This document shows positions 9,379-34,232 of a stretch of 39,519 bases of DNA, piece after piece. Source of the stretch: Alphaproteobacteria bacterium (lineage in GTDB: Bacteria > Pseudomonadota > Alphaproteobacteria > GCA-2731375). The notes below the pieces were generated by a model. That model was not told the DNA's origin. It ran no database searches and saw only the letters and a program-made list of their open reading frames with translations. Within the stretch, counting starts at the first letter, position 1, and each line of letters begins with the position of its first letter. The stretch covers positions 1 through 39,519 of the forward strand of contig JAPYPT010000010.1 of the NCBI GenBank assembly GCA_029937535.1, written 5' to 3'. A program made the position numbers and the translations under genes.

Positions 9379-9436
9379 AGCGTTTTCAACTTTTGTTGGG
9401 TGGCCTGGCGATTTAACGTTAGTTGAAAATGCTCTA
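9376..9436. repeat. Palindromic element, TAGAGC-bounded (copy 2), spanning both stop codons
   Basis: The arms TAGAGCGTTTTCAACT and AGTTGAAAATGCTCTA (one mismatch) flank a loop of about 29 bases. The first TAG is the stop of the TPR-SPOR gene. The last CTA is the stop (TAG on the minus strand) of tadC. The hairpin is well placed to end transcription of both convergent genes. Confidence 0.85.
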
Positions 9437-10393
9437 AATGGTATTCAAGGCCGTGATGATGGCCGGGCCAATGAGGATGATAAAAAGCACGGGCAGGAAA
9501 AACACGATCATCGGAACAGTCAATTGCGCGGGCAGGGCGCCGGCCTTTTGTTCCGCCCGGCTCATCCTCTCGTCCCTTTGTTCTTGCGATAGCACATGCA
9601 GGCTGACACTGATCGGGGTGCCATACTTCTCCGCCTGGGCCAATGCCGTGACCAGGGATTTTACAGCTGGCAGGCCGGTCCGTTCCGACAAATTTATCAA
9701 AGCTTGGCGCCGGTCGGGAAGAAATGCCAGTTCGGCGGTGGTCAGGCCCAGTTCTTCGGCCAATTCCGGTCCCTGTTCCTGCAATTCTCCCGCCACCCGG
9801 TGGAAGGCCGCCTCCATGGACAGACCGGCCTCGACACAAATGACCAGCAGGTCCATGGCGTCGGGGAAAATTTTCTGGATCGCCGTTTGGCGGTTTTGAA
9901 TTTTATTTTTCAAGATAATCTGCGGCATGAAAAAGCCAATCACGGCGGCGAGAAAGGAATACATCAGTTTGCCGGACGGTCCCATCTCGACCTTGGCAAG
10001 CAAAAACAGATAAATGGCCGTCAACAGGCCGAATATTATAGGCGCCACGAAGCGGAAGAAGGCATAGGTGTACAAATTCGCCTCGGACCGCAAGCCGGCC
10101 TGGGCCAACTTGTTTTTCATTGCCACGCTGTCGGCCGGGTTGACCAGTTTCAGCTTTTCCACCAGATAGGTGACGTACCCCCGGCCAACCTGCTGGCGCA
10201 GGGTGGAGGTCTGGTTGCCGAACTTGTTCCGTGCCTGGGCGCTTAATTCCTCGCGCCGGGCGGCCACGGTCTTTAATCGCGAACGCAGGCTGTCGCTGCC
10301 CATGAACGGCATGCCAAAGGCGACAATGGTCAAGAATGCGCCAATGCTGCCCAGGGCGATAATTATATTTTCAGGTGCGAGGAGAGTATCCAT
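9434..10393 (-). CDS. tadC: Tad pilus inner-membrane platform protein TadC
   Basis: This 319-residue protein of the GspF/T2SSF family is one of two inner-membrane platform proteins of the Flp/Tad pilus. A helix near the N-terminus is followed by a charged linker, a pair of central helices, and the family domain FPDAMDLLVICVEAGLSMEAAFHRVAGEL, with AQAEKYGTPISVSLHVLSQEQRDERM. Two helices end the protein. Its ATG overlaps the tadB TGA (ATGA at 10391-10395), so the two are translationally coupled. It is the last gene of the minus-strand pilus operon and its stop lies in a palindromic element. Confidence 0.93.
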   Translation of the reverse strand: MDTLLAPENIIIALGSIGAFLTIVAFGMPFMGSDSLRSRLKTVAARREELSAQARNKFGNQTSTLRQQVGRGYVTYLVEKLKLVNPADSVAMKNKLAQAGLRSEANLYTYAFFRFVAPIIFGLLTAIYLFLLAKVEMGPSGKLMYSFLAAVIGFFMPQIILKNKIQNRQTAIQKIFPDAMDLLVICVEAGLSMEAAFHRVAGELQEQGPELAEELGLTTAELAFLPDRRQALINLSERTGLPAVKSLVTALAQAEKYGTPISVSLHVLSQEQRDERMSRAEQKAGALPAQLTVPMIVFFLPVLFIILIGPAIITALNTI

Positions 10394-11385
10394 CAGACTT
10401 CAAAATTGATCATTTGTTTCATGATAAAGACGCCGCAGCTCATCCAGCATAAGCCGCCGACGATCATGATCTGGCCCCGGCTGTCCGTGAACAATGGCCC
10501 GATGTATTCCGGACTGGTCAGATACAACAGCGCCGTCATGAGGAACGGTAATGAGCCAATGATGCTGGCGGAGGATTTCGCCTCCGAAGACAGCGCTCTT
10601 ACCTTGTCCCCCATCTTCTTGCGGTCCCGCAGGATGCGGGACAGATTTGACAAGGTATCGGCGAGGTTGCCGCCGGTCTGGGCCTGGATCGCAAGGACAA
10701 TGGCGAAGAATTGCAGTTCCGGTGTGTTCAGCTGCTCCTGGCCCCGGACCAGCGCTTCATCGAGGGACAGGCCCAATTTTTGCGATTCCACGATTTCGCG
10801 AAAAACACCGGCTACCGGTTCGGGGCTTTCCGTGGCAATGATATTCAGGCACTCGCCGACCGGCAGGCCGGATTTTATACCACGTACAATGACATCAACG
10901 GCGTTGGCGAATTCCTTGGTGAATTTGGCGATCCGCCGTTTGGTCATGGTTTTGACCACGTAACGGGGAAAGCCAAAGCCAACGGTAATAGCCACGGGCA
11001 GCGCGCCAATTCTTGGATAACCCAAGATCAGATAGAGAATGCAGGAGCCGATCGCAAGACCGCCGCACAAAATAAAATAGTTCCGCACGCTGGTCTGCAA
11101 TCCCGCATGGCGCAGGATCTCGCGCATCTTCACGGCAAATGATTTTTTGGTTTTTGCGTCCTCCAGCTCGCGCAGCCGCGATTGGATGTTTCGTTTCCGC
11201 CCGCCGCTATCACGCCCGCCCGCGCGCCCGCCGCGGATACTGCCGGCCTTGCCCGAGGCGATAGCCACGCGCTGCTTTAAATTCGCCCGGGCCTTGACCT
11301 GCGGCATGATCAGCAAAAAGGTCAGCACGGTCATCGACAGAAAAACGGCGCCAGCGACGACAAATACAAGAACGCTAAGATCCAT
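10393..11385 (-). CDS. tadB: Tad pilus inner-membrane platform protein TadB
   Basis: This 330-residue T2SSF-family protein partners TadC in the inner-membrane platform on which the TadA ATPase acts. Hydrophobic segments lie at the N-terminus (LVFVVAGAVFLSMTVLTFLL), the centre and the C-terminus. The conserved domain reads FANAVDVIVRGIKSGLPVGECLNIIA and LQFFAIVLAIQAQTGGNLADTL. A basic Gly/Arg-rich stretch (GGRAGGRDSGGRKR) lies in the N-terminal cytoplasmic part. The ribosome site AGGAG is well placed before the ATG. A gap of 74 bases separates it from tadA, the largest gap among the distal genes. Confidence 0.93.
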   Translation of the reverse strand: MDLSVLVFVVAGAVFLSMTVLTFLLIMPQVKARANLKQRVAIASGKAGSIRGGRAGGRDSGGRKRNIQSRLRELEDAKTKKSFAVKMREILRHAGLQTSVRNYFILCGGLAIGSCILYLILGYPRIGALPVAITVGFGFPRYVVKTMTKRRIAKFTKEFANAVDVIVRGIKSGLPVGECLNIIATESPEPVAGVFREIVESQKLGLSLDEALVRGQEQLNTPELQFFAIVLAIQAQTGGNLADTLSNLSRILRDRKKMGDKVRALSSEAKSSASIIGSLPFLMTALLYLTSPEYIGPLFTDSRGQIMIVGGLCWMSCGVFIMKQMINFEV

Positions 11386-11459
11386 GCCCGTCTCCTTTAA
11401 ACCGGCCTCCCAGTCGGGACCTGCGAATGCACCGGGCGAGGCAGCCCGGCCCGCGCACT

Positions 11460-12914
11460 CTACATACCAAGCGCTACAACCAGATCTTCCTCGCGGCCAA
11501 AATACTTGGCCCGGTCCCAGAATGTTGGGCGCAGGCCCGTCGGCTTGTGTTCGCCGATCAACTTACCATTCTCGTCTTCGCCAGTGATCTCATAGGTAAA
11601 GAGATCTTGCAGGGTAACGACGTCGCCTTCCATGCCGACCACCTCCGTGATATGGGTGATCTTGCGGCTGCCGTCGCGTAGGCGCGCGGCCTGCACAATG
11701 ACATGCACGGCGGATGAAATTTGCTCCCGCACGGTCTTGGCCGGTAGGTTGAAGCCGCCCATGGCGATCATGTTTTCCACCCGGCTGATAGCCTCGCGCG
11801 GGTTGTTGGCATGGATCGTACCCATGGAGCCGTCATGGCCCGTATTCATGGCCTGCAACAGATCAAACGCCTCCGGCCCGCGCACCTCGCCGACGATAAT
11901 TCGTTCCGGCCGCATGCGCAGACAGTTTTTGACCAAATCCCGCATGGTGATTTCGCCCGCTCCCTCAAGGTTGGGGGGGCGTGTTTCCAGACGCACGACG
12001 TGGGGCTGTTGCAATTGCAATTCGGCCGAATCCTCACAGGTGATCGTTCGTTCGCCCTCTTCGATAAAGGCGGTCAGGGCATTCAACAATGTTGTCTTGC
12101 CCGAACCCGTGCCGCCCGAAACCAGGATATTCAAGCGGCAGGCGCCAATAACCTCCAGCAATTTCGCGCCCGAGGGGGTAATGGAGCCAAAATTTACGAG
12201 GTTCTCTATACGCAGTTTGTCTTTCTTGAACTTACGAATGGTCAAGGTGGCGCCGTCGATTGACAGAGGCGGCGCGATCACGTTGACGCGGCTGCCGTCC
12301 AACAGGCGGGCATCGCAAATGGGGCTGGACTCGTCCACCCGGCGTCCCACCGCCGAAACGATGCGCTGGCAGATATTCATCAATTGCGCGTTGTCCCGAA
12401 AGCGGATGTCCGTCAACTCAATCTGGCCATCGACTTCAATGTAAACTTTCTCGGCGCCGTTGACCATGATATCGGCAATATCGTCCCGTTCCAGCAACGG
12501 CTCCAACGGCCCCAGACCCAAAACGTCGTTGCAAATATCGGTAATCAGGGACTGTTGTTCGGTGCTGGACAGCACCATGGCCTTCATGGCGATAATTTCG
12601 CCGACAATATCAGTTATTTCCTCTCGGACCTGGGAGGATTCCAGTTTGCCCAGCTCGGTCAGGTCGACGGCCTCGACCAGGGAGGAAAAGATGCTCTGCT
12701 TGGTTTCGTTGTAGCGGTCCCGTTCATCGCCGAACAGGTCGCTGTGGTCGGGGGCCGCGACCGGTTCCGGCACGACAGCCTGGGGCGGGGGCACCACAAC
12801 GGGCGCCGGGGCCGGTTCGACTATCGCCGGCTCTTCCGGCAGCGCCTCGGCACTTGGTATTTGGGGCGGGGCCTTCGGTTTAACTTCTGGCCCACCGGTC
12901 CGTTTGCCAAACAT
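11460..12914 (-). CDS. cpaF: Tad pilus assembly ATPase TadA/CpaF
   Basis: This 484-residue secretion ATPase powers pilin polymerisation, and in the Tad system retraction too. After a Pro/Ala-rich N-terminus (about 10-55) comes the family N-domain (LGLGPLEPLLERDDIADIMVNG). Then come Walker A GGTGSGKTT at 267-275, the Asp box ITCEDSAELQL, Walker B RIIVGEVRGPEAFDLL and the His box GHDGSMGTIHANN. All catalytic elements are intact. It starts two bases after the TadZ/CpaE stop, so the two are likely translated together. The proline-rich N-terminal tail is longer than in the shortest homologues but is common in the family. Confidence 0.95.
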   Translation of the reverse strand: MFGKRTGGPEVKPKAPPQIPSAEALPEEPAIVEPAPAPVVVPPPQAVVPEPVAAPDHSDLFGDERDRYNETKQSIFSSLVEAVDLTELGKLESSQVREEITDIVGEIIAMKAMVLSSTEQQSLITDICNDVLGLGPLEPLLERDDIADIMVNGAEKVYIEVDGQIELTDIRFRDNAQLMNICQRIVSAVGRRVDESSPICDARLLDGSRVNVIAPPLSIDGATLTIRKFKKDKLRIENLVNFGSITPSGAKLLEVIGACRLNILVSGGTGSGKTTLLNALTAFIEEGERTITCEDSAELQLQQPHVVRLETRPPNLEGAGEITMRDLVKNCLRMRPERIIVGEVRGPEAFDLLQAMNTGHDGSMGTIHANNPREAISRVENMIAMGGFNLPAKTVREQISSAVHVIVQAARLRDGSRKITHITEVVGMEGDVVTLQDLFTYEITGEDENGKLIGEHKPTGLRPTFWDRAKYFGREEDLVVALGM

Positions 12915-12916
12915 GA

Positions 12917-14116
12917 TTAACTCGCCTTACCTTTGGTTTTTGACTTCGCCTTGCCCTTGCCCTTGCCCTTGAAACCTAATTGAGCCATGAGGCCCTTTTT
13001 AGCCTTTTGTTGTGGTTGCCGTCCACTAACCAGTATCGCCAGATCGCGCAGGGCCTCCACTGATTTATGTTTGCCGCTGACCTGCCCAACCATTTGCCCG
13101 TTGTTGGAGGCCGTTCCGAACAACGCGGCGGCGTGCGGTATTACGATGTCCGGCTTCATTTCGATCGCGGTTTCAAAATCTTTTGGCGACAGTTCTGATT
13201 TTTTGTAGGCGCCTTGATGGTTCAGCACGAGCCGCAGCGGCGAGGTCTCGCCCCGTTGTTGGCGCAGACGGTCCACAAGGTTTTTAGTGTCACGCAGACC
13301 CGACAGGTCCAGGACGCCCACGATCACGGTCTCGTCCGCATCAAGTAGAACTTGCTGCACCCAGGGCGCCCAACGGTGGGGCACGTCCAGAACCACGAAA
13401 GAGGACCGCCGGCGCACCAGATCCAGTAACCGGTCCAGGGATTCAGTCATGATCCGCTCTTCCGCGTTCAGATTGGAAGGCGATGCCAACAGGCGGACAT
13501 TCTCGTCAAATTCAATGAGAAAGCGGTCCAGCAACTGATCGTCCAGTCGGCTGGGATCAGCCAAGGCCTGTTCCAAGGTTTGCTGGGTCTCTAAATTGAA
13601 CGACAAGGCGGCGGTGCCGAAGGTAACATCAAGATCGATAACGGAAACTTCCTCGCCAAATTCCTGGCCCAGGTGCCAAGCCGTATTGTGAGCGATAGCC
13701 GATGATCCGCCACCGCCCCGGCTGCCCATGAAGGCGATTGAACGGCCCATGGGCGGGGCGTCGGGATCTTCGAAAATATTGGTGACCGCCTCAAGAATTT
13801 CCCGCGGCGCGACTTGACCCACCAGATACTCCGCCACGCCGCGCTGGATCAGTTCACGATACAGGCCGATATCATTTGACGATCCCATAATCAGGACATT
13901 GGTGCCGGCATCGCAGACTTCCGCCAGGCGATCCACTTCGTTAAGCACTTCCTCGCTTTCGGAATCTGATTCCAGCAGGATAAGTTGCGGTGTTGCATTG
14001 TCTTGATAATGGGCAATAGCCGCATCAATGCCGCCCATCCGCGCATCGACATTGGATCGGGACAGTTTGCGGTCGCCCAATCCATCGATCACGGCTGTCT
14101 GTGATGCTTCGTTCAC
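12917..14116 (-). CDS. cpaE: Tad pilus localisation protein TadZ/CpaE
   Basis: This ParA/MinD-like protein places the Tad machine, typically at a pole. An atypical receiver-like N-terminus (about 1-115) precedes an ATPase domain whose P-loop reads GSRGGGGSSAIAHN (131-144). That is the deviant form lacking the usual lysine, as in other CpaE proteins. VIDLDVTFGTAALSFNL and VVLDVPHRWAPW follow. The C-terminus is a lysine-rich tail (GKGKGKAKSKTKGKAS) that could bind membrane or nucleic acid. The only ordinary start is GTG at 14116. But the frame upstream stays open to a TGA at 14159-14161, and the extra residues ILRINVNAWL match the usual CpaE N-terminus. The true start may be ATT at 14146, seven bases after GGGAG. 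Confidence 0.92.
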   Translation of the reverse strand: MNEASQTAVIDGLGDRKLSRSNVDARMGGIDAAIAHYQDNATPQLILLESDSESEEVLNEVDRLAEVCDAGTNVLIMGSSNDIGLYRELIQRGVAEYLVGQVAPREILEAVTNIFEDPDAPPMGRSIAFMGSRGGGGSSAIAHNTAWHLGQEFGEEVSVIDLDVTFGTAALSFNLETQQTLEQALADPSRLDDQLLDRFLIEFDENVRLLASPSNLNAEERIMTESLDRLLDLVRRRSSFVVLDVPHRWAPWVQQVLLDADETVIVGVLDLSGLRDTKNLVDRLRQQRGETSPLRLVLNHQGAYKKSELSPKDFETAIEMKPDIVIPHAAALFGTASNNGQMVGQVSGKHKSVEALRDLAILVSGRQPQQKAKKGLMAQLGFKGKGKGKAKSKTKGKAS

Positions 14117-14225
14117 CAGCCAGGCATTGACGTTTATCCTAAGAATGGCGCCACTCCCTCATGTCCCGCGCGATGTACCGTGCGGATATGCCGTGCCGAT
14201 ATTGGCTTCATATCCAGCATAATCC

Positions 14226-14918
14226 TTAATTGCCGCCAAGCTGCCGGATCGAGCCCGTGTTCTCGCTACTGCCTCGTGTCGCTTCGGTCGGCTCGCCGGC
14301 GCTATAGTTTCTATGTACCCGGGCGCGCCGTCTGCCGTCGCCCGGCAATTCCGGCTGGGGTGTTTCCATATCGGCCGGATTGGCGATCATCACGGCCAAG
14401 CCGGCGCGCAGGGCGCAGCCAAAGTCGGGGTGCCTCTTATTGGTCGGGTTATTGGCCGTCGGCCTGTTGCGTTGGTTGCATGCAATGGTTCGCAAGGTAA
14501 AGGATTCAAAACTGACGATGATCGGGCCGCCGCCATCGTCCGTGCCTGCAATCCGGCGCAAGCCAATTTCGCTGGGCCGGACCCCTTGCCGCAGGATGTA
14601 TCCGCGAACGGCCTGCAACCGCGCTTTCGCCTCGTCGTTGTCGCCGGCCGTGGTCTGGCGGATTTCAAGCAAGCCGCCGCCCCTCTTGAAGTAATGTTTT
14701 ATCATGGCGTTCAGGCTTCGTTTTTCGTCATTTCCAAGCGTGGCGGTCCCCGTCTCGAATATGATGGGCTGCGTCACCAAGCGGCCATCCGCCTTAAAGG
14801 GATACAGGTCCGCTGGTGTCCGGCCGGCTTCCGGTGGATTTGGCAGGCAGCCGGCCAAAAGGGTCAGACAAAGGGCCATGGCCGCCAGTTTTGCGAACTT
14901 GCGCATATCATATGTCAT
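14226..14918 (-). CDS. cpaD: Tad pilus lipoprotein CpaD
   Basis: This protein of about 230 residues is of the CpaD family, a lipoprotein of the Caulobacter-type pilus that supports the outer-membrane secretin. The signal MRKFAKLAAMALCLTLLAGC ends in a clear lipobox. The family region follows, with GDNDEAKARLQAVRGYILRQGV, then an NPTNKRHPDFGCALRAGLAVMIANPADM segment typical of CpaD. The ATG at 14918 is preferred over one at 14951 because GGGAGG sits at ideal distance and the upstream start would overlap cpaC. A tail rich in Arg, Glu and Ser is likely flexible. A gap of 13 bases follows the cpaC stop. Confidence 0.92.
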   Translation of the reverse strand: MTYDMRKFAKLAAMALCLTLLAGCLPNPPEAGRTPADLYPFKADGRLVTQPIIFETGTATLGNDEKRSLNAMIKHYFKRGGGLLEIRQTTAGDNDEAKARLQAVRGYILRQGVRPSEIGLRRIAGTDDGGGPIIVSFESFTLRTIACNQRNRPTANNPTNKRHPDFGCALRAGLAVMIANPADMETPQPELPGDGRRRARVHRNYSAGEPTEATRGSSENTGSIRQLGGN

Positions 14919-14931
14919 CAGCGGCCTCCCA

Positions 14932-16392
14932 TTATTCAAGAATATACCCAATGGGCCCTTTTAAGGAGGCCGTGTCGGTATCCTGCCCACCAGCGTAGAT
15001 CCCGTGCAAACGACCGAGGAGGTAGAGGTCATAGTCGCTGGCCGGGATCAAACCGTCGGCCGATGTTTCAATTTTCCTGGGCGTTGTGGGGCGGACCAGA
15101 AAGGCCGTGACGGTAATGACCAATTCAGTTTCCGTCTTCTCCAGACTATTGTTGCGAAAGAAGGCGCCCAGGATCGGCACGTCCTTAATTCCAGGTACGC
15201 CCCGTATGCCGGCGGTCTCGTTCTCCTGCAACAGCCCCGCGATCACCAGGCTGCCCCCCGACGGCAACTCAACCGTGGTTTCCGCCCGCCGCACGGTGAG
15301 TGCGGGCACCTGGATATTGGCCAAGGTGATGGCCCCGGCGTTGGACAAGGCGCTGACTTCAGTGAAGATGCGTAGGGAGATGCGGCCTGAATTTAGAACC
15401 ACCGGCGTAAAGCTCAGCGCCACGCCGAAGGGTTCTTGTGAAATTGAGATGTTGCCGTCTCTCGCGGCTACCGGAATGGGGAATTCACCCCCCGCCAGGA
15501 AGGTGGCCGGCTCACCGGAAATCGTTGTCAGGTTCGGTTCAGCCAAGGTCTTGATCAGGCCGTTTCGCTCCAGCGCATTGATGGCGACGGTCAGACTGTC
15601 GCCCGTTGCCGGCGAATAAGTGAGCTGGCTAAACAGATACGGCGTATCCGTTGTCGGCGCGAAGCTGGCGACCCGCACGGCGAAATCACCCGAGGTCAGG
15701 GTCGAAAATGTCCCCGCGATGGCATCGAATAGATTAATGCCGAGTTCCTTCAGGACATTGCGCGAAACTTCCGCCACCCGGACCTGCAGCAAGACCTGTT
15801 GAGTCTCGATCACCGTCAGCATGTTGATGACGTTTTCTTCCGCCGAAACGAAGCGCGAGGCGATGACCCGTGCATGTTCGGAAATATCGGCGGAGCGCAC
15901 ATTGCCGGTCAAAAACAGATGTGAATTGACGGCCGTGATCTTGACGTCCGTGTTGGGCAACAGCTCGTTGATGGTCTGCTTGGCCGCGACCACATCCAGT
16001 TGCACCTGAATTTCCAGCCGCAACAGCTCATTACCCTTGTCATCCAGGAAAAACGCATTCGTCGAACCGACTTCCAGGCCGATCAGATAGATCAGCCGCT
16101 GCGTCTTGACCACCACGTTGGCGACGGAGGGATTGGCGACCAGCACATCACGCACCGCCATGGGTAAACGGATCAGGCGGGCCTTGCCCTCGGGCAGGTT
16201 GATGGCGCGGGCCGGCAATCCGTCGCGGATTTCCAGGGTGCCGATTTCGATCTGCTGGCCGTCGGGCGCGGGAACCGTGACCTCTTTGGTCTGCGCCATG
16301 GCGGTTTGCCCATAAGCGCAGGCAATAAGGGCCCAAAAAACCAGCCTCATTGTTCGAATGACGGTGCGAACCGTTCGGGCCATTTCAGCCAT
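14932..16392 (-). CDS. cpaC: Tad pilus outer-membrane secretin CpaC/RcpA
   Basis: This 486-residue secretin forms the outer-membrane channel for the Flp pilus. After a signal peptide (FWALIACAYGQTAMAQ) come the N-terminal pilus domain (about 60-145), a BON-like ring domain, and the secretin core. The core has NGLIKTLAEPNLTTISGEPATFLAGGEFPIPV and the closing VPGIKDVPILGAFF, both family signatures. It has no lipobox, so targeting presumably depends on CpaD and the TPR lipoprotein. ATG at 16392 overlaps the cpaB TGA (ATGA); a GTG three bases upstream is the only alternative. Length is normal for the family. Confidence 0.95.
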   Translation of the reverse strand: MAEMARTVRTVIRTMRLVFWALIACAYGQTAMAQTKEVTVPAPDGQQIEIGTLEIRDGLPARAINLPEGKARLIRLPMAVRDVLVANPSVANVVVKTQRLIYLIGLEVGSTNAFFLDDKGNELLRLEIQVQLDVVAAKQTINELLPNTDVKITAVNSHLFLTGNVRSADISEHARVIASRFVSAEENVINMLTVIETQQVLLQVRVAEVSRNVLKELGINLFDAIAGTFSTLTSGDFAVRVASFAPTTDTPYLFSQLTYSPATGDSLTVAINALERNGLIKTLAEPNLTTISGEPATFLAGGEFPIPVAARDGNISISQEPFGVALSFTPVVLNSGRISLRIFTEVSALSNAGAITLANIQVPALTVRRAETTVELPSGGSLVIAGLLQENETAGIRGVPGIKDVPILGAFFRNNSLEKTETELVITVTAFLVRPTTPRKIETSADGLIPASDYDLYLLGRLHGIYAGGQDTDTASLKGPIGYILE

Positions 16393-18023
16393 CACCTTTT
16401 GACCACCACGGTCGACGGCGTCGATGCCCGATAGATGGTAATGGTGCGGGTTTCTTCTTCGACTTCGATGTCGATGACCTCCACTGATGCGGGTACTTTT
16501 GCCGGCGTTACAGTTTTTCTTGAACGCTGGGACTTGCCCAGTTGTTTAGCCCGGCGCAACAAATTGGGATCGCGCCGGGTGCCCAGAATAATTTGATCGA
16601 GCAAGGCCTTGCTGACGCCGATATCCGACGATGCGCTGGCCTCGCGGATGTCGTCGCCGGAGGGGACGGAGCGTAGGGAAAGCGATAGGGAACCCATGCT
16701 GGCGGCCAATGAAACCACTTCGGCCTGTGTCGGTGTTACTTCCAGCGTGACGGTTTCACCAACCCGCGGTTTGCCCGTATTCGGGTCAATGACCTGCTCG
16801 ATTGCCAGAAGGCGTAAGTCCAGCAACAGCGTCTCGGTGAATTTCCGGATCGGCAGCACGGGTTTTTCGGAGGCATCGGAGTACTGGTGGGTCAATAGCA
16901 CGTCAACCCGGTCGCCCGGCGCGACAAAGCCCGAGACGCCGCTGACCTGGCTCACCACCATGCTGACGGCCCGCATGCCCGGCGCCAGGGAGGCGACAAT
17001 GAAACCCTGTTCGCCGGGGCGGATAATATTGCTGTGCAAAATTACCGCGCCCATTTCAAGGTCTGTTTTCAGGTAAGAGCCGCGCAGGGCGGTCATGGAG
17101 GTCAGGGCCTCGAATATATGGTCTTCGCCGTCCTGGCCGGCGGCAAGCGGTTTCCAAATAAAATCCGTATCACGCATCAGCGCGCCGGCGGGCAATTTAT
17201 GCTTGGCCATCAAAATCCGCGGCACGGATGAGGCCCGGCCACGCAAAAAGCGGCTGACTTCTTCGTCCGAGGTAAAGTCGGACTTGCTTTCGACCGCCGC
17301 ATCGCGGACCAGACTGCGCAACGACAGGGAAACCCGCCCCATGCGCTTGGCGACGGCGAGGCTTTCGGCCTGCTTCGGGGGCAATTCAAGGGTGATGGTC
17401 TTGCCAACCCGCGTTTGCTCCGAGATATCGTCGAAAGTTTGGTCAACGGCCAAGGCGCGTACGTCGGCAATTATGGTTTCGCTGATGATTTTGTCGCGAT
17501 TGGCATTCTCGCCCTGGGTCTGGCGAATTTGCTGGGTCAAAACCACATCGACCCGGTCGCCTGGCAGGATAAAACCGGCGGCGCCGGATTCAGCGCTGAC
17601 GCTAATCGAGACGGCCCGCATGCCCGGGCCCAGAACCCCTGCCAGGAACCCCGCCTTGCCCGGTTCCAATAGCCGGCTCTTGGTGATCGGTTGACCCTTG
17701 GTGATACCCCGGCGTACCGCCCAGCCGGTCAGATCCGCCGGCTTCACTGACTTTTTCTTGTCTTTCTGGCCTTGGACAATATAGTTCTCCGCCAGACCTT
17801 CCTCGGGCCAAGCCTGCCAGAGGAACAGATCCGGATTGACGATCGTGCCGGCGGGTAAATTATTGAGCGCGACAAGCACCTTGACCGTCGGCGCCTTGAC
17901 GACCTCTTGGGGCTTGCCCTTGCCATTTCCGACTGAGTCTTGCAGGAAATTCCTGACCAGAAAGGCGGTCGTGCCCGCCACGGCGAGCGCGGCAACAATC
18001 AAAAGAATGCGCGCCAGATTCAA
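16392..18023 (-). CDS. cpaB: Double-length Flp pilus assembly protein CpaB with tandem SAF-RcpC modules
   Basis: This periplasmic, membrane-anchored CpaB/RcpC protein has 543 residues; usual members have roughly 250-330. An N-terminal anchor (ILLIVAALAVAGTTAFLV) is followed by two full CpaB modules. Module 1 (about 46-237) and module 2 (about 266-453) repeat the same landmarks: LPAG near the start, PGMRAVSISVS versus PGMRAVSMVVS, GFILPGDRVDVVLT versus GFVAPGDRVDVLLT, and VSLSLRS versus LSLSLRS. The C-terminal 90 residues are basic and then beta-like. SAF domains are thought to bind peptidoglycan or glycans, so a duplicated form may make two contacts. It starts at TTG 18023 with GAGGGTG upstream and opens the operon containing cpaC. 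Confidence 0.93.
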   Translation of the reverse strand: MNLARILLIVAALAVAGTTAFLVRNFLQDSVGNGKGKPQEVVKAPTVKVLVALNNLPAGTIVNPDLFLWQAWPEEGLAENYIVQGQKDKKKSVKPADLTGWAVRRGITKGQPITKSRLLEPGKAGFLAGVLGPGMRAVSISVSAESGAAGFILPGDRVDVVLTQQIRQTQGENANRDKIISETIIADVRALAVDQTFDDISEQTRVGKTITLELPPKQAESLAVAKRMGRVSLSLRSLVRDAAVESKSDFTSDEEVSRFLRGRASSVPRILMAKHKLPAGALMRDTDFIWKPLAAGQDGEDHIFEALTSMTALRGSYLKTDLEMGAVILHSNIIRPGEQGFIVASLAPGMRAVSMVVSQVSGVSGFVAPGDRVDVLLTHQYSDASEKPVLPIRKFTETLLLDLRLLAIEQVIDPNTGKPRVGETVTLEVTPTQAEVVSLAASMGSLSLSLRSVPSGDDIREASASSDIGVSKALLDQIILGTRRDPNLLRRAKQLGKSQRSRKTVTPAKVPASVEVIDIEVEEETRTITIYRASTPSTVVVKR

Positions 18024-26566: not shown

Positions 26567-28855
26567 TTATTTGGTTTCGGCGACGAAGACACCGTCCCAT
26601 TCGGGATCGGGCGGATTTTCTAGGAAAAATGCGATGCGCTCGTCATACATGTCATAAAGATCCGTGAAGCTGCCATCGGCTGTCCGGCAACTGCCGACCA
26701 GGGTGCGGGCCTTGTCCCATTCCTGGTGGCGGTAGGCTTCCAGCATTTCGCTGTGTTGCGATTTCAGTGTCTGGAAGTCCTGTTGGCGCAACATATCCTC
26801 GCGGCCGAGAATGGTGTGGATACGAACCGCTTCCGTCTTGCCCTTCACGGCAATCAGATCCAGTTCGATGGTGGCGAATTTGTCGTTCACCACGGCTTCC
26901 GTATCTTCACCGATGACGATGCCGACGCCGTAATTCTTGGACTGGCCCTCCAGGCGGGCGGCCAGATTGACCGAATCGCCCAGGACCGAATAGTCGAACC
27001 GCTGTTCGGAACCCATGTTGCCGACCACGCATACACCGGTGTTGATCCCGACACCCACATTCAGGGGTTTGTGTTCCGTGCCGTTTTCTTCCGCCTCCGC
27101 CTTCAGGACCTTGTTCAGTTCCGCCAATTCCTCAAACATCACAATGGCCGATTCACAGGCATGTTCGGGATGTTGTTCATCATCGAATGGGGCATTCCAA
27201 AAGGCCATGATGCAATCGCCCATATACTTGTCGATGGTACCGTGCCGGGCCAGGATCGCGTCGGTCAGTGGAGTTAGAAAGCGGTTGATCAGCCGGGTCA
27301 GGCCTTGAGGATTGTTCTTGAAGGTCTCGGAAATCGAGGTGAAGCCGCGGACGTCGCAAAACAGGAAGGTCATGTTGCGGCTTTCACCGCCCAGTTTCAG
27401 GCGGTCGGGCTCGTTCGCCAGCTGTTCCACAAGGGCGGGAGAAAGATATTGGCTGAAGGCGCCGCGCACCTGCTCGCGCTCCGCCTCCGTCTTCAGGTAC
27501 AGAATGGTCGAAGAGGAAAGGAATATGGCCACAATGGCGATGCCGGGATAGATCGGATCAACCAGCATCAGTTTGTCCGTATACAGATACCAGCTCAACG
27601 CCGCGGCGCCGATGGCGGTGCCGATGGAGATGGAGGCGCCCGGCAGGGCGCCGAAGCGGGGCGTGATCAGGATCAGGAAAAAGCCCATGACCAGGATCGA
27701 GATGATCTCCATCCCTTCGGCCCAATCAGGCCGTTCCATGAAATGTCCCGACAGGATCTGCTCGACGGTTTGAACGTGCACATCGACCCCGGCGGCGGCC
27801 GAATCCAGGGGCGTTGTCCGCAAGTCCTTGAGGCCGGCTGCGGACGTGCCGAAAAACAAGATCTTCCCCGCCACCAGGGACGGATCGAAATCGTCCTCGA
27901 ATACTTTCCAAAGGGGGATGACACGGCCCGGCGCCGCCTTTGCAAAATGCACCCAAAATCGGCCGCCGGCATCGACGGGAATTTCCAGATGCCCCACCTT
28001 GATGTGGTTCATGCCCGTGGATTCGCCAAAATTCTCTTCCTGATTGGCGCCGGAATTCTTAAGGATGTAGGTCGAGGCCCCCTGGAATACCCGCAATGCC
28101 TCCAGCGACAGGCTGGGGTAAAGCTGTTCGCCAATACGCATGAATGTTGGTACGCGGCGGATAATACCGTCGGTTTCGGGCACATGATTAAAACTGCCGA
28201 CGCCGGAGGCGGCTTCCTCGATGGCGGCCAGATTGACCACGGCGCCATCGAATTGGTTCAGGAAAGGACGCGGGTCATCGCCGCTGATGGCGAAACCCGC
28301 CTTGACCACCGGTTTGCTTTTCTGCCCGTCGTTGGTCAGGACAACGCCCGCGATCACGCCAATGTCCTTCGCGGCGTCGCGGATCTGGCCAATGATGTTG
28401 GCGAAGGCATCATCATGGTCGGGAATGTTTTCCAGAATGGGCTTGGCAAACGCCCTGGCCTGGGGTGACAAATCTTCCAGATTGTCGACCGGCTGGTTGA
28501 GCCAGACCGACAGGGCCTGTTTCGGCGAGGTCCGGTCCGGTTCGGCGAACACCACGTCGAATGCAACCACCTTGGCGCCGGCGTTGAAAAGCCGCGCCAA
28601 CATTTCCGCCAGTTTGCTCCGCGGCCAGGGCCACTGGCCGGTGCGGGCCAGGGTCTCGTCGTCCAGATCAAGTGTCGCCACGGGCACTTCCTGATGCTCG
28701 CGGGGGTGGATCTGATTGTATAAATCGAAAAGCTTGAGGCGGAAAACTTCCAGGAAAGGTGGGTTCTCAATCCGCAGACCCAGAGCCGCCAACAGCATGA
28801 TTGTTGGAATTACATACACCATTTGACGTTTGATGAAACGAATGGCGGGGACCAT
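26567..28855 (-). CDS. CHASE2-domain class III adenylate/guanylate cyclase
   Basis: This 762-residue membrane receptor-cyclase has an N-terminal helix (about 12-27), an extracytoplasmic CHASE2 sensor domain (about 35-365, with VAFDVVFAEPDR, FNHVPETDGIIRRVP and FFGTSAAGLKDLRTTPL), and three helices (about 383-453). The class III cyclase domain spans about 490-680. Active-site residues are intact: metal Asp501 (LFCDVRGF) and Asp547 (KYMGDCIMAFW), Lys543, Asp621 (RFDYSVLGD), Asn630 and Arg634 (NLAARLE). The Lys/Asp pair suggests ATP and hence cAMP. A helical C-terminal tail follows. It starts four bases after the HD-GYP gene stop, so both are made from one message. Confidence 0.93.
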   Translation of the reverse strand: MVPAIRFIKRQMVYVIPTIMLLAALGLRIENPPFLEVFRLKLFDLYNQIHPREHQEVPVATLDLDDETLARTGQWPWPRSKLAEMLARLFNAGAKVVAFDVVFAEPDRTSPKQALSVWLNQPVDNLEDLSPQARAFAKPILENIPDHDDAFANIIGQIRDAAKDIGVIAGVVLTNDGQKSKPVVKAGFAISGDDPRPFLNQFDGAVVNLAAIEEAASGVGSFNHVPETDGIIRRVPTFMRIGEQLYPSLSLEALRVFQGASTYILKNSGANQEENFGESTGMNHIKVGHLEIPVDAGGRFWVHFAKAAPGRVIPLWKVFEDDFDPSLVAGKILFFGTSAAGLKDLRTTPLDSAAAGVDVHVQTVEQILSGHFMERPDWAEGMEIISILVMGFFLILITPRFGALPGASISIGTAIGAAALSWYLYTDKLMLVDPIYPGIAIVAIFLSSSTILYLKTEAEREQVRGAFSQYLSPALVEQLANEPDRLKLGGESRNMTFLFCDVRGFTSISETFKNNPQGLTRLINRFLTPLTDAILARHGTIDKYMGDCIMAFWNAPFDDEQHPEHACESAIVMFEELAELNKVLKAEAEENGTEHKPLNVGVGINTGVCVVGNMGSEQRFDYSVLGDSVNLAARLEGQSKNYGVGIVIGEDTEAVVNDKFATIELDLIAVKGKTEAVRIHTILGREDMLRQQDFQTLKSQHSEMLEAYRHQEWDKARTLVGSCRTADGSFTDLYDMYDERIAFFLENPPDPEWDGVFVAETK

Positions 28856-28859
28856 GGAT

Positions 28860-30095
28860 CTAGTCTTTCAGGCGTCGATGGATCTTATTCATACCTTGGT
28901 GCCGTTTGCCCAGCAAGGATATTAGTTTCGGGTCGAAATGATTGTTCGGATCAAGCCGGTCATCACCCTTCAACATAATATCAATAGTCTTTTTATGATT
29001 GAACGCCGGTTTGTAGGGCCTCTCGGAGCGCAAGGCATCGTAAACATCGGCCATCGCGACGATACGGGCGGATATGGGGATATCGTCGCCCGCGACATTG
29101 TAGGGATAGCCATTGCCGTCCCATTGCTCGTGATGATAGAGCGCGATTTCCGCCGCCATGTTCAAGCGGGGCGCGGTTTCCAGGATTTGATGGCCATATT
29201 GTGGATGCATGGCCATTTCGGCCCGTTCATCATCGTCCAGACGGCCCTTTTTCTTGAGAACGGCCACATCGACACTCATTTTGCCGACATCATGCAGCTG
29301 CGCCGAATAGTGAATTTCGTCGCAAAAAGCCTTCACCATGCCAAATTCCTGGGCCAGGAAATAGCTGTATTCATTGACCCGGACAATATGATTGCCGGTG
29401 CCTTCGTCATGGATTTCCGAGGCCCGGGCCAGTAACTCAATCGATAACAGAAAGGCTTCCTCGGTCTCGGCCTGCATGGCGATGACCTGAGCCCGCTGCT
29501 CGCCCAATTCCCGATTGCGTTGGCGCAGGCGGGCATTTTTCTGCCGAATATTTTCCAACATGGCGGCGCGTTCAATATGGGTTGCCAAGACGTTGCCAAT
29601 GGGGGTGACCAGTTGCACCTGGTCCTCGTCAAAGGGAACCGGTGTTTCCACGCCTTGGCTACGGCGGTTTATAAGCTGCACCACGCCGATAACCTGCTCC
29701 TGATAGTTTTTCAAGGGAAAGCAAAGTACCGACATGGTGTGGTAGTTGGCCAACTCGTTATCGGGATTGAAGCTGTAGCTCTTGCCAGCGGCTATGTTGT
29801 AGACATCGTCGATGCGCACGACCTCACCGGACGCGGCGACGAAACCGGAAATACTTTTTGTCGTGATGGGAACAACAAAATCACTGCTGCCGATGCGCAC
29901 AACGTCACTTTGCAGGCTGATGGGTTCCAGCCACCGTTGTTGGCCCTTCCTGCGGACAATATAGATGGTGCCGCCCTCGGCCCCGGTCATCAGGCGGCTT
30001 TTCAGCAGCACTTTGCTCATCAGCTGATTTACTGACTGACGCGGTTGCCGTTCCACGAATTCCAGGAATTCGAGCACCTGATTAGAAACCGTCAT
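28860..30095 (-). CDS. GAF-HD-GYP cyclic-di-GMP phosphodiesterase
   Basis: This 411-residue cytoplasmic protein has a GAF sensor domain (about 25-175, GGTIYIVRR and FPLKNYQEQVIGVVQLINRR), a short coiled coil (about 178-212), and an HD-GYP domain (about 215-385). The metal and catalytic marks are complete: HDEGTGNH, LHDVGK (HD at 268-269), HPQYGHQIL and HHEQWDGNGYP (321-331, including GYP), then IVAMADVYDALRSERPY. It is expected to cleave cyclic di-GMP. The gene is directly upstream of, and nearly touches, the cyclase gene, which suggests linked control of two nucleotide messengers. GGTAGGGG precedes the ATG. Confidence 0.93.
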   Translation of the reverse strand: MTVSNQVLEFLEFVERQPRQSVNQLMSKVLLKSRLMTGAEGGTIYIVRRKGQQRWLEPISLQSDVVRIGSSDFVVPITTKSISGFVAASGEVVRIDDVYNIAAGKSYSFNPDNELANYHTMSVLCFPLKNYQEQVIGVVQLINRRSQGVETPVPFDEDQVQLVTPIGNVLATHIERAAMLENIRQKNARLRQRNRELGEQRAQVIAMQAETEEAFLLSIELLARASEIHDEGTGNHIVRVNEYSYFLAQEFGMVKAFCDEIHYSAQLHDVGKMSVDVAVLKKKGRLDDDERAEMAMHPQYGHQILETAPRLNMAAEIALYHHEQWDGNGYPYNVAGDDIPISARIVAMADVYDALRSERPYKPAFNHKKTIDIMLKGDDRLDPNNHFDPKLISLLGKRHQGMNKIHRRLKD

Positions 30096-30229: not shown

Positions 30230-33200
30230 TCAAACCATGCGTTGCAGCCGCTCGATGATGAAATTATTCTTCTCCAGAATTTCCGTCGGCGTCAGACGCA
30301 AGACCTGATAGCCCCGTTCCACCATCACTTCGTCATGATTGTCTTCCGCCTCCAACTCGTGTTCGCCGCGAACCGATTCCAGAGGGGCGGCGATTTCAAT
30401 ATTGTACCGGCCGCCAAGGGGAGAGACGAGACGTACCGCCAAGGTCTGCTCACCTTCAGCAACGTTGCATTGGAAGGGAAACCCAGCGCTCAACAGCATT
30501 TGACGCAGCGCCGGCCAGGGATTCAAGGGCGCCTCGGCGTTCTTGTCCCCGAATGCCTTGTCGAACCTGACCTCGAACTCGTCGGGTATCAGCTCGCCGT
30601 TCTCATCGAATGCCGGTGGATCCTCGGCAAAATTTGAAAGGGCCGTGCACAGGCCGTTGGCATCGCGGCAGACATCCCGATCGCCGACGATGTGCAGACC
30701 CAAACGGGCCGCGCCGACCACGTCATGATACAAATCCTCGGCCCCGGCCAAGGCCTGGTTCAAGGCATCGGGTGCATCCGGCGCCAGGCCGGGCAGCAGA
30801 ATTATGAAATCCACCTGCCGGCCCAGAAACAAGTCCGGCGTGGCGACGGTGATGCGTTCACGTACGTTTTCCGGGAAATTGCCGCGCTTAATGAATTCCC
30901 TAATTTGTTCCGCTTGGGCGGGGATCGGCGTGGCGATGCCGACCGAACGGCGGGGCAGTCCGCGGAACAGGCCGATTTCGACCCAGGCGCGGATCAGCTT
31001 TTCCGTTTCCTTGACCTCGCCCTCGTTGACTGAATTATTTCCAACCACGGTCATGCGACCGGTCACGTGATGCCATTGCACGCCCAGTTGATTTTCCGGC
31101 GCGTCCGAGCGCAGTTTGCGGAAATTGGTCTGAACCACCATTTTGTTCTCATAAAATGTTGACGACAGATATTCCGCGATCCGGGGGTGTGAACGATAAT
31201 GTTCGACCAATTGATAGACGCCCCCCGTCACCGACAGCAGGTCGCAGAGATTGCCAAGAGCGGTCCGGCTGGCCGGTGACATCGTAACCTTGGCGGCCGT
31301 CTGGGTGAACTGACGTTTCGCCTCCCATTCGGGGGGCAGCGGAGAGAGGCGCTGATCATGGCGGGCAGCGCCGAACACCGCCGCCCGTTTGCCCCGGTAC
31401 AAGACCGGCAGGACGAGGCCCAGATCCCCAAGGTCCGCCTCATCAATGACAACCAGATCGAAATAGCCCGGCTCTAGCGGCAAGGCCTGGCCGGCTTCGT
31501 CCAGAGTGGCGCTCCATACGGGTAGCTGTTCGGCCAGAATACCGACCGCCTGGGCCAGCCGGGCGGAGCGATGGGTCCGGGTTTCATTGGCATCATCCTC
31601 GTTGCGTTTGTCGATCAGGTCAAAGAATGTCGAAACCTGATTCTCCAAGACCGCCGGGTCATCTTGTAAGCGGTCCGACCAATAATCGCGGTACAGCTCC
31701 CGCACGCCTGAAATCTTGCGGGCGGATTGGTTCATGGCCTGCAGTTCCAGGGTCCGGCAATCCTTGAAGCGGATAAGGTCGCGGATCGCCTTGTCCCGCT
31801 TGTCGACAAGCTGCCGCCATTTGACGTACATGCCCAACACTTCCAGGCCGGCGCCGATACCGACCAACTTGTCGTCATCCTCAAGGTCTTCCGCCGCTTG
31901 ATCCTTAATCACGGAGGGAAGCTTCGCCACCGCGCCACGGATCGCCGATAGAAGATCGTCGCGGCCGTCATTGCGGGACAGCATGCCCTTCATCATCTTG
32001 CCGATGCCGCCGCTCTTCTCACCGTTCAGAATTGCGAATTCGTCACGCCAGCCCTGCAGCTTTTCATGGCTGGGGCAGGGGGTCGTCCGCCGGGCGGGCG
32101 GCAATTGCCCAAGTCCGAGTTCAAGGGCCTCCCGGCGTATCAATGCGCCCAGTTCATTGACCCTACCATGAGCCGCGCGCAAGGGATCGACACCCTCGTT
32201 ATCCGCGACGGGCAGACGATCCAGCTCCTCCATGTCCTTGAGGGTCGGTTTCTCCCGGTTGGAGGCTTTCTTGTCCTCGCCGTCGTCTTCACCTTCCTCG
32301 GAAACATCGGCCTCGGGCCGCTGAATTTCCCGTAGCGTTTCATTTATGGCCAGGCGGCATGCCTCATTGACCTGGCTGTCGCCAACCCGCACCACGGCCG
32401 ACATCTTACGCCCCACCCAGGCGTTCAGATGATTGGTCATGGCGTCCACGGTTTCCCGGCGGCGGGCCGTGTACAGCACGCTCTGCCCATTCATCACCGC
32501 CGTGGCAATCAGATTTACCACCGTCGCCATTTGCCCGGTGCCGGGCGGCGCGGTGACCGCAATAAGCTGATGTTTCATACCGGCGCGGACCGCCTGGGTC
32601 TGGCTGTAGCCCAGGCGGTGCATGTCGAACACCATGGGACCATCCAGATGCGGTTGTTTCCCGTCTTCACCCAGCTCGCCGCCGCTGCCCGCGGCTTGGA
32701 TCCCACCCAGGGCGGTGGCGCCGATGCGGTGTTGTGCCTCAACGCCGCTCAGGTCGTTCAGATCCCGCAGCAAGGCCGAGATCGATGGCGCCATGGTAGC
32801 CGAGGCGAGGACGGCGCGATTTCGCCATTGCATGCGGCCTAGGGCGCCGGGCGCGATGACCTCGTCTAGTTTTGCGGGATTGAACCGGTCCGCTTTCAGG
32901 CCGAGGCGTTTGGCAACCGTTGCCAGTTTTTCGGCAAAAGGCACGGCGGGGTCGGCAATTTGATGGGCCAGGCCTTGAATCTGCAGTGGCTCAACGCCCT
33001 GATCCTGCAAAAGAGCGCAATTGACTTTCAGATAGCCATCCGGATCGGGGCACAAAACGCCGTCCTGGATCTTTGCCCGCATCAGAAAAAGGGGCCGGAT
33101 CGAGCCGTCGGCATATTGCAAATAGGGATAACCGTAACACAGCAGGGAAACGCCATAGGAAGTTAGAAAGCGTTCAATATTTTCGTTATCATCCGGCAGC

Positions 33201-33442
33201 GTCGCGGCCCGATTGCCGTGCATGAAGATGGTTTCGGTGTCCGTCGGCAGCTCCACGTAGGCCGGAACACCACCCGCCAGGGGGACCCGTAATTCATGCA
33301 GACGTTCTTCTTCGATCGCCCATCGGCTTGAACGCATCAGACCCGACAGATCGACGTCCGCCGAAGCATTCAGGTCCGGCCCGGCATGTTCAGTTTGCCT
33401 GGCGTCGTCCCTATCTATTGCCTGACGGGCAGGCTGTGCCAT
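30230..33442 (-). CDS. Large SF1-helicase-like protein with altered catalytic motifs and a degenerate nuclease-like C-terminus
   Basis: About 1070 residues follow the layout of large DUF4011-type AAA_11/AAA_12 helicase-nucleases. There is an N-domain with CYGYPYLQYADGSIRPLFL, a Q-like motif (GYSQTQAV), a P-loop, a charged coiled middle of about 300 residues, Walker B, SF1 motifs III-VI, and an endonuclease-like end. Residues are counted from the longer start at 33529. The P-loop is APPGTGQMAT (327-336), with Gln333 where the essential Lys should be. Motif III reads FGAARHDQRLSP (usual GDPxQLPP), and motif VI VVGAARLGLHIVGD (usual VALTRAR). Walker B VIDEADL, EHYRSHPRI and FLGRQVDFIILL are kept. 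The end has WPALRQMLLSAGF and ERGYQVLRLTPTEIL but no D-ExK nuclease residues. ATG 33442 is preferred because a palindrome overlaps the start at 33529. Confidence 0.8.
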   Translation of the reverse strand: MAQPARQAIDRDDARQTEHAGPDLNASADVDLSGLMRSSRWAIEEERLHELRVPLAGGVPAYVELPTDTETIFMHGNRAATLPDDNENIERFLTSYGVSLLCYGYPYLQYADGSIRPLFLMRAKIQDGVLCPDPDGYLKVNCALLQDQGVEPLQIQGLAHQIADPAVPFAEKLATVAKRLGLKADRFNPAKLDEVIAPGALGRMQWRNRAVLASATMAPSISALLRDLNDLSGVEAQHRIGATALGGIQAAGSGGELGEDGKQPHLDGPMVFDMHRLGYSQTQAVRAGMKHQLIAVTAPPGTGQMATVVNLIATAVMNGQSVLYTARRRETVDAMTNHLNAWVGRKMSAVVRVGDSQVNEACRLAINETLREIQRPEADVSEEGEDDGEDKKASNREKPTLKDMEELDRLPVADNEGVDPLRAAHGRVNELGALIRREALELGLGQLPPARRTTPCPSHEKLQGWRDEFAILNGEKSGGIGKMMKGMLSRNDGRDDLLSAIRGAVAKLPSVIKDQAAEDLEDDDKLVGIGAGLEVLGMYVKWRQLVDKRDKAIRDLIRFKDCRTLELQAMNQSARKISGVRELYRDYWSDRLQDDPAVLENQVSTFFDLIDKRNEDDANETRTHRSARLAQAVGILAEQLPVWSATLDEAGQALPLEPGYFDLVVIDEADLGDLGLVLPVLYRGKRAAVFGAARHDQRLSPLPPEWEAKRQFTQTAAKVTMSPASRTALGNLCDLLSVTGGVYQLVEHYRSHPRIAEYLSSTFYENKMVVQTNFRKLRSDAPENQLGVQWHHVTGRMTVVGNNSVNEGEVKETEKLIRAWVEIGLFRGLPRRSVGIATPIPAQAEQIREFIKRGNFPENVRERITVATPDLFLGRQVDFIILLPGLAPDAPDALNQALAGAEDLYHDVVGAARLGLHIVGDRDVCRDANGLCTALSNFAEDPPAFDENGELIPDEFEVRFDKAFGDKNAEAPLNPWPALRQMLLSAGFPFQCNVAEGEQTLAVRLVSPLGGRYNIEIAAPLESVRGEHELEAEDNHDEVMVERGYQVLRLTPTEILEKNNFIIERLQRMV

Positions 33443-33508: not shown

Positions 33509-33571
33509 TAGAGCAGTTTTTCCAACCACTTAGTAACACTTCGTGATTCACGTTAGATCGGAACTGCTCTA
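33509..33571. repeat. Palindromic element, TAGAGC-bounded (copy 4)
   Basis: TAGAGCAGTT and AACTGCTCTA form the terminal stem. The interior holds a weaker pairing (TAAC with GTTA, CACTTCGTG region). CTTAAG flanks the left side, as also seen beside copy 1. It lies upstream of the helicase-like gene and overlaps its longest possible start codon (33529). Confidence 0.75.
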
Positions 33572-33716: not shown

Positions 33717-34098
33717 CTATTTCGTGGCGTCTTTCAGATAACCAATTATGTTGTCGCGCTGGGATTGTTTTGTGAGTCTGGAAAAAGTCATTTTTGTCTT
33801 TGGCACCAGCTTTCTCGGCTTGGTCGGATATTTGTCCAGCATGGCCTCGTCCCAGACGATGCCGGAAGCCTTCATGGCCTTGGAAAATTTGAACCCGTCC
33901 AAGCTACCGGCCTTGCGGCCAAACAATCCATGCAGGTTTGGTCCAACCTTGTTTTCGCCGTCGGCCTTCAAGGTGTGGCAAGCCTTGCATTACTTGAACA
34001 CTTTACTTGCCTTTCTTGAGATTTGCGGCGTCAGCCACATTGAACGGCAAGGCCATGGCGATGGCGCCAACAACCACCGGCAAACGAAGCTTCCGCAT
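33717..34098 (-). pseudogene. Broken class I c-type cytochrome gene
   Basis: A well-formed start (ATG 34098, AGGAG upstream) gives a signal peptide: MRKLRLPVVVGAIAMALPFN, then VADAANLKKGK. The frame then stops at TAA 34003-34005. One base of shift brings in SKVFK, another TAA (33990-33992), then CKACHT, the heme-attachment motif, and the rest of a class I cytochrome: [16 protein letters not shown], and VPKTKMTF with the Met ligand. It ends at 33717. Functional relatives would read continuously, about GKKVFKKCKACHT. Two stops and a frameshift thus lie within about 20 bases, just before the heme site. The downstream part is otherwise well preserved, so the damage is recent or is a sequence error. 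Confidence 0.8.
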
Positions 34099-34232
34099 TT
34101 GGATCTCCTTACGACTGTATCTGAGCAATAAATATCTGTGGCATCGGCCACGCGGGCCTTACCTGGCATAGCCGCCGCGAGCATCGCAGCGACGGATCGT
34201 CGCACGCGGAGGTGGGTTGGAATACCGTTTCA

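Follow-up and report, generated by a model that had tools for sequence, protein, structure and literature searches.

Why is a gene for a large helicase-nuclease kept intact after the residues needed for both of its catalytic activities have been lost? This question is raised by a gene in the window analysed here, a stretch of 39,519 nucleotides that represents one entire contig (JAPYPT010000010.1) of the metagenome-assembled genome (MAG) GCA_029937535.1, which measures 5.58 Mb, is 96% complete and has marine Alphaproteobacteria/Rhodospirillaceae MAGs as close relatives. The gene, designated here as the pseudohelicase, occupies 30233..33442 of the minus strand (ATG start at 33442, stop codon at 30230-30232) and encodes a pseudohelicase-pseudonuclease of 1070 amino acids. 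It descends from superfamily 1 (SF1) helicases, has lost catalytic residues, groups with a wider family of degenerate proteins, is under purifying selection and, like its relatives in a second lineage, is found at a fixed locus.

Loss of catalytic residues in an intact frame

The start codon (MAQP) is common to the orthologues and gives a product of 1070 residues, with the open frame itself reaching upstream to a GTG at 33529. Pfam detects AAA_12 (1.5e-14) and AAA_11 (6.9e-8), both past curated cut-offs, and the best PDB sequence matches retrieved by phmmer are UPF1 (1.2e-8), NAM7, Senataxin (SETX) and IGHMBP2. By descent the protein is thus a UPF1-like (SF1B) helicase followed by a C-terminal nuclease-like region, and the SF1 architecture within an uninterrupted frame of about 1,070 residues, as given in a preliminary description of this DNA, was confirmed, with the gene placed on the minus strand. 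Assignment to the DUF4011 type, also made there, did not hold, since Pfam returns no DUF4011 match and the NCBIfam score for DUF4011/Hhe membership is 35 against a cut-off of 2000. The nuclease domain MTES_1575 is not detected by Pfam in the pseudohelicase and is detected in its active relatives.

The state of each motif was judged by alignment with nine active relatives. The Walker A motif or P-loop (residues 298-307, APPGTGQMAT, 32522..32551, minus strand like all parts of the gene given below) has Gln in place of Lys, as had been noticed earlier, and the Mg-binding Ser/Thr is gone as well. Motif III (residues 689-695, VFGAARH, 31358..31378) has lost its GDxxQ, with G691-A692 in place of GD, and motif VI (residues 904-921, LYHDVVGAARLGLHIVGD, 30680..30733) reads YHDVVGAARLG where active relatives have TRAR, such that of its two Arg residues only the second (R913) remains; both changes agree with the preliminary description. 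Motif IV (residues 747-753, EHYRSHP, 31184..31204) is indeed kept with its HYRSHP. The same had been said of motif V (residues 865-879, TVATPDLFLGRQVDF, 30806..30850), which in fact reads FLGRQVD against FQGxExD in active relatives and hence lacks both the Gln and the Glu. Motif II or Walker B (residues 662-670, DLVVIDEAD, 31433..31459), reported as kept, is so only loosely, with DEAD in most orthologues and a drift to NEAD in G007 and DDAE in G010. In the nuclease-like region (residues 975-1070, 30233..30520), which is colinear with the MTES_1575 domain, LDxAL...IEVDG of the active enzymes is represented by LAVRL...IEIAA, in agreement with the reported loss of acidic residues; both Asp residues are gone, and the Glu remains as E1016. 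Since the same motif changes recur in independently assembled relatives, chance is excluded, and from the missing residues we infer the loss of both ATPase and nuclease activities.

Orthologues and purifying selection on the altered P-loop

Six further genomes of the genus have full-length intact copies with 73-83% identity, and in a seventh (G009) the copy is split across two contig ends. The P-loop APPGTGQMA(T/S) is found in all nine sequences of this group that cover it, the window included. Orthologues with an intact GKT, which would mean decay of the present copy, were sought and not found, GKT being confined to more distant outgroup proteins. A genome of another genus of the same family (G013) carries a 902-amino-acid open frame of about 30% identity in the same syntenic place, with the P-loop APPGSGAFA.

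The ratio of nonsynonymous to synonymous substitution rates (dN/dS) of the pseudohelicase against the six orthologues amounts to 0.09-0.14, in a range like that of the adjacent HD-GYP (0.07-0.08) and cyclase (0.10-0.12) genes, these values being approximate due to high dS (1.2-1.5). Proportions of nonsynonymous and synonymous differences (pN and pS), obtained from comparisons that all include the window sequence and hence are not independent, differ strongly along the protein. For residues 298-307 of the P-loop, all 60 codon comparisons agree in the amino acid (pN of 0.000 at a pS of 0.52), and pN/pS is 0.03 for residues 296-318, 0.09 for the motif V-VI region and 0.34 for residues 420-560 in the helical insertion, as compared to 0.23 for the whole pseudohelicase. 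The dead ATP site is therefore the most constrained part among those examined.

In several relatives the gene is broken or replaced. Only its two ends (about residues 1-84 and 1003-1070), mutually out of frame, are left in G003 (L094 2887-3439), and in G008, where the intervening HD-GYP gene is missing, the first 61 residues continue in frame into the end of the CHASE2-cyclase (L095 4369-5277). In G011 the N-terminal third (341 residues) is kept and the last two thirds have given way (L096 6738-10073) to a thiamine diphosphate-dependent enzyme, joined in frame, and to a gene resembling class III aminotransferases on the opposite strand, both judged by appearance, and in G014 other genes occupy the site. 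As these broken copies come from MAGs, misassembly is possible in single cases.

A wider degenerate family and its ancestry

Profile searches revealed further degenerate members in two more order-level groups of Alphaproteobacteria, one comprising G161, G672, G338, G676, G673 and G670 and the other G135, the sole member in its order, whose two overlapping frames indicate a frameshift or a sequencing or assembly error (L076 1220-3704). No degenerate member was found in any other family among 385 sampled genomes of the class. P-loops of these members read EAPPGGGKLA, EMLPDSGRYG, DVPPGGGQMA, EAPPGSNRMA, EASPGGEREA and ESPPGTAKMI, none with Ser/Thr after the Lys position, and where the regions are present not a single degenerate member has a P-loop K(S/T), the GD of motif III or the first Arg of TRAR. 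What these members have in common at the TRAR position is the signature (Y/F)H...AARxGxHxxGD, often followed by CxxAGG, which the pseudohelicase carries in its motif VI. The same searches retrieved active relatives with GPPGTGK(S/T), DEASQ, GDPxQL, FQGDERD and TRAR, most of them with an MTES_1575 nuclease domain.

In maximum-likelihood trees a single branch with 100/100 support separates 15 degenerate from nine active sequences, the latter all with GK(S/T), and this split is unchanged upon removal of the motif and nuclease columns. Given this one-sided grouping with full support even without the motif columns, the simplest reading of the trees is that catalysis was probably lost once, anciently. 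The root of these trees is not fixed, G013, G338 and G135 form long branches, and both vertical descent and transfer between orders fit. The view that the gene is a maintained pseudoenzyme and not a decaying one, put forward in the preliminary description, is thus upheld by orthologues with the same altered P-loop, by dN/dS of about 0.1 and by the clustering of degenerate relatives across three order-level lineages. A phage origin was also considered and was rejected, as a scan of viral contigs with the family profile confirmed no relative; relying on a single short peptide pattern, this test is a weak one.

Pfam yields zero matches in G338 and G676, and in the other members outside the genus only sub-threshold helicase matches or spurious ones. 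This near-invisibility may explain why the family appears to be undescribed so far; a literature search for earlier accounts of such a family returned only the dead-helicase precedents cited below, an absence that is no proof of novelty.

Predicted structure and other parts of the protein

A full-length AlphaFold2 model built with seven orthologues had a predicted local distance difference test score (pLDDT) of 34 and was unusable; RecA1 is represented by the AAA_11 sequence match. Residues 730-1070 were folded with four active relatives added to the alignment, resulting in a mean pLDDT of 64.5, with block means mostly of 64-92 across residues 780-940. Within the RecA2 domain (residues 730-945, 30608..31255), residues 766-942 are predicted to adopt the UPF1/Sen1 RecA2 fold, with Z scores of 17-18 at 2.5-2.7 Å over about 170 residues against Senataxin, Sen1, UPF1 and IGHMBP2 (VIA Z 17.9, 170 residues, 2.5 Å for SETX 8ftm). 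The helicase fold on which the preliminary description relied was in this way recovered for RecA2, and the full-length model was not used. The order of strands and helices in the nuclease-like part of the model is consistent with an alpha-beta-beta-beta-alpha-beta nuclease core; this part gave no separate match among the matches listed, which RecA2 fills, and this bears neither way.

The N-terminal domain (residues 30-270, 32633..33355) carries a GYP...PLF signature common with active relatives, as seen in sequences and alignments, while an extra N-terminal region of the latter, winged-helix-like by eye, is absent. RecA1 contains a helical insertion (residues 345-620, 31583..32410), seen as helices in the low-confidence model, which by the pN/pS given above is partly fast evolving. 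The motif REKPTLK (residues 396-402, 32237..32257) is common to the genus, G013 and G135 in the alignment.

Genomic context

Gene order is constant throughout the genus and in G013, with genes for MlaC, a trypsin/PDZ protein, a CHASE2-adenylate/guanylate cyclase (26567..28855, minus strand) and a GAF-HD-GYP protein (28860..30095, minus strand) leading up to the pseudohelicase, these neighbours being assigned by Pfam and synteny. On the other flank lie a small cytochrome c gene and, farther on, TRAP transporter genes. In the second group the gene adjoins mazG, and in most of its members lies between metG-side genes and mazG/hflX (names assigned by eye). No defence genes were found near the pseudohelicase among neighbours identified by Pfam and by synteny across relatives, both loci are fixed and neither is a defence island. 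The proposed link with defence was hence not supported for the pseudohelicase, whose neighbourhood is fixed and of housekeeping type; among its active relatives, at least one is situated amid defence genes. A promoter and terminator scan gave numbers near chance and nothing usable.

Two further observations concern the same contig. The small cytochrome c gene (33720-34100, minus strand, divergent from the pseudohelicase) is interrupted by a frameshift close to KKGK and by a stop codon immediately ahead of the haem motif CKACH; it is intact in relatives, so the window copy is a pseudogene or an assembly error. A Flp/Tad pilus cluster (CpaB, CpaC, CpaE, CpaF, TadB, TadC) extends over 9434-18023 of the minus strand.

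Proposed role and alternative explanations

By analogy with known dead helicases, and in line with a possibility raised in the preliminary description, the pseudohelicase probably works as a nucleic-acid-binding scaffold. In the proposed course of events, the ancestor would have combined an active SF1 helicase and a Vsr/MTES_1575-type nuclease in one fusion protein. This protein would have lost its nuclease Asp residues together with those required for ATP hydrolysis, namely the Mg-binding Ser/Thr of the P-loop, the motif III Asp, the first Arg in motif VI and, for the majority of members, also the P-loop Lys, before the divergence of the three order-level lineages or before the spread of the gene among them. 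The RecA-like domains of the pseudohelicase may still form a groove able to hold single-stranded DNA or RNA in the absence of ATP, the remodelled P-loop cleft may have turned into a fixed structural, ligand or partner-docking site, and the protein could have a scaffolding or reading function like that of RecC/AddB or Deinococcus radiodurans PriA. Because the P-loop is frozen, a new role of the cleft itself is suggested, and a role in rigid structure, in docking or in ligand binding would each be compatible with the data. Taken as a whole, this explanation, a dead SF1B helicase-nuclease family serving as an ATP-independent nucleic-acid-binding scaffold or reader, is given a little better than an even chance. 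The more specific proposition of a free-standing SF1B family that lost both activities once, was kept in three order-level lineages, and uses the cleft as a new conserved binding site in a housekeeping-type regulatory or nucleic-acid-reading role, is advanced tentatively and is on balance doubtful.

Several observations weigh against the scaffold explanation. An intact two-RecA cleft is unsupported by the full-length model, and the P-loop Lys is kept in G161, G672 and G135, which may thus still bind nucleotide. The two fixed loci have no neighbours in common, and a Pfam family search of the host MAG found no other AAA_12 helicase. Several relatives have a broken copy or a replacement, which makes the role of the gene accessory and dispensable. 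RecC and AddB are UvrD-like (SF1A) proteins that work only inside complexes, RecBCD and AddAB, whereas the pseudohelicase is of SF1B type and has no adjacent partner gene.

The main rival, to which a rather low probability is assigned, is a sensor of nucleotides or second messengers, in which the cleft would bind nucleotide without hydrolysis and the contacts of the protein would be switched by the bound state; for this order, a link of the ligand with the HD-GYP phosphodiesterase and CHASE2 cyclase encoded next to the pseudohelicase is conceivable. The invariance of the P-loop over the 60 codon comparisons, the retained Lys in the three genomes just named and the adjoining HD-GYP and cyclase genes in the genus and G013 would all fit such a sensor. 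However, a change of K to Q together with loss of the Mg-binding Ser/Thr usually abolishes nucleotide binding in P-loop proteins, the neighbours in the second lineage are quite different (metG, mazG, hflX, hfq), and the P-loop varies among its members. A somewhat smaller likelihood is given to a place as a non-catalytic subunit in a defence or repair complex, in which an active partner would supply catalysis, as AddA and RecB do for AddB and RecC. Here the repeated gene loss resembles that of accessory systems and some active relatives lie beside defence genes, as on a Rhizobium plasmid with Shedu and a restriction endonuclease; the window, though, lacks defence genes and a mobile context, synteny is fixed in the genus and G013, and neither a second AAA_12 helicase in the host nor a relative in viral contigs was found with the searches described above.

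That the protein is a non-canonical yet active ATPase, with other residues standing in for the lost ones, is improbable: strong constraint on the altered cleft and retention of the motif II Asp in most members would agree with it, but the losses are joint, comprising the P-loop Lys, the Mg-binding Ser/Thr, the motif III Asp, the Gln and Glu of motif V and the first Arg of motif VI, and lineages differ in the replacement residues. Least probable by far is a functionless gene in early decay, as the internal deletion, truncation or replacement in G003, G008, G011 and G014 might by itself imply; this is largely refuted, as seven genomes of the genus have open frames of full length, dN/dS is about 0.1, the species are identical in their altered motifs, and long frames persist in other orders.

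Should the scaffold explanation be right, the family would offer deep phylogenetic spread, natural comparisons in the form of several damaged or absent copies, and close active enzymes for side-by-side biochemistry, and its P-loop poses the question of what keeps a dead ATP site frozen. The lack of any Pfam match in G338 and G676 implies that similar families may escape annotation.

Comparison with known systems

The nearest counterparts are active bacterial SF1 helicases with an MTES_1575/Vsr-like nuclease (for example G349, G097, G369, G593 and the Rhizobium plasmid protein WP_207159510.1), which have the same domain order as the pseudohelicase, namely a GYP...PL(F/L) N-terminal domain, a helicase core and a C-terminal nuclease-like region. 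Over its last 341 residues the pseudohelicase is colinear with a relative from a viral contig (L137). These enzymes keep GPPGTGK(S/T), DEASQ, GD(P)xQL, FQGxExD, TRA(R/K) and the acidic nuclease residues, which are degenerate in the pseudohelicase. Some relatives lie in conspicuous gene arrays. On the Rhizobium leguminosarum plasmid NZ_CP071401.1 (319991-330887, L142), the gene of a weakly similar helicase is lined up with those for a Shedu nuclease, a restriction endonuclease, a DUF2357 protein and a protein resembling chromosome-segregation ATPases, which together form a candidate defence cluster. In G593 (L082 170-10733) the active helicase-nuclease is followed on the same strand by large helicase-like and Hsp70-like frames (by eye), a possible multi-gene system. 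On a viral contig (L140 3131-9724) an active relative precedes a long coiled-coil protein with a McrB-like AAA domain (by eye), an arrangement that recalls CoCoNuT.

CnuH of the CoCoNuT type IV restriction systems is, like the pseudohelicase, a UPF1-like SF1 helicase, fused in type III-B to a Vsr-like nuclease (PMC11090510). It differs in keeping the helicase motifs, lost in the pseudohelicase, and in its McrB-type GTPase partner CnuB, of which no gene was found among the neighbours examined by Pfam and synteny. With the Hhe/DUF4011 anti-phage proteins, weak matches are shared in the helicase core only.

Among dead helicases, RecC retains both dead helicase and dead nuclease regions (PMC1185551), and the inactivated helicase domains of AddB/RecC bind Chi at a single-stranded DNA tracking site (PMC4824097). 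These proteins thus unite a dead helicase, in RecC also a dead nuclease, with a structural or reading role, and the same combination in one protein is predicted for the pseudohelicase. PriA of D. radiodurans, which has lost motifs and shows neither ATPase nor unwinding activity, still binds DNA and DnaB (PMC4504706) and is likewise a retained bacterial pseudohelicase; it belongs to a different helicase family with a role in replication restart, and the loss is confined to the Deinococcus-Thermus PriA lineage. In yeast Utp25 the helicase fold is kept and the ATPase motifs are dispensable (PMC9539457); unlike the pseudohelicase, it is a eukaryotic protein derived from DEAD-box (SF2) helicases and functions in ribosome assembly. 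RecC, AddB, D. radiodurans PriA and Utp25 are the few dead helicases with known jobs, and to these the scaffold explanation, if true, would add a free-standing bacterial UPF1-like family.

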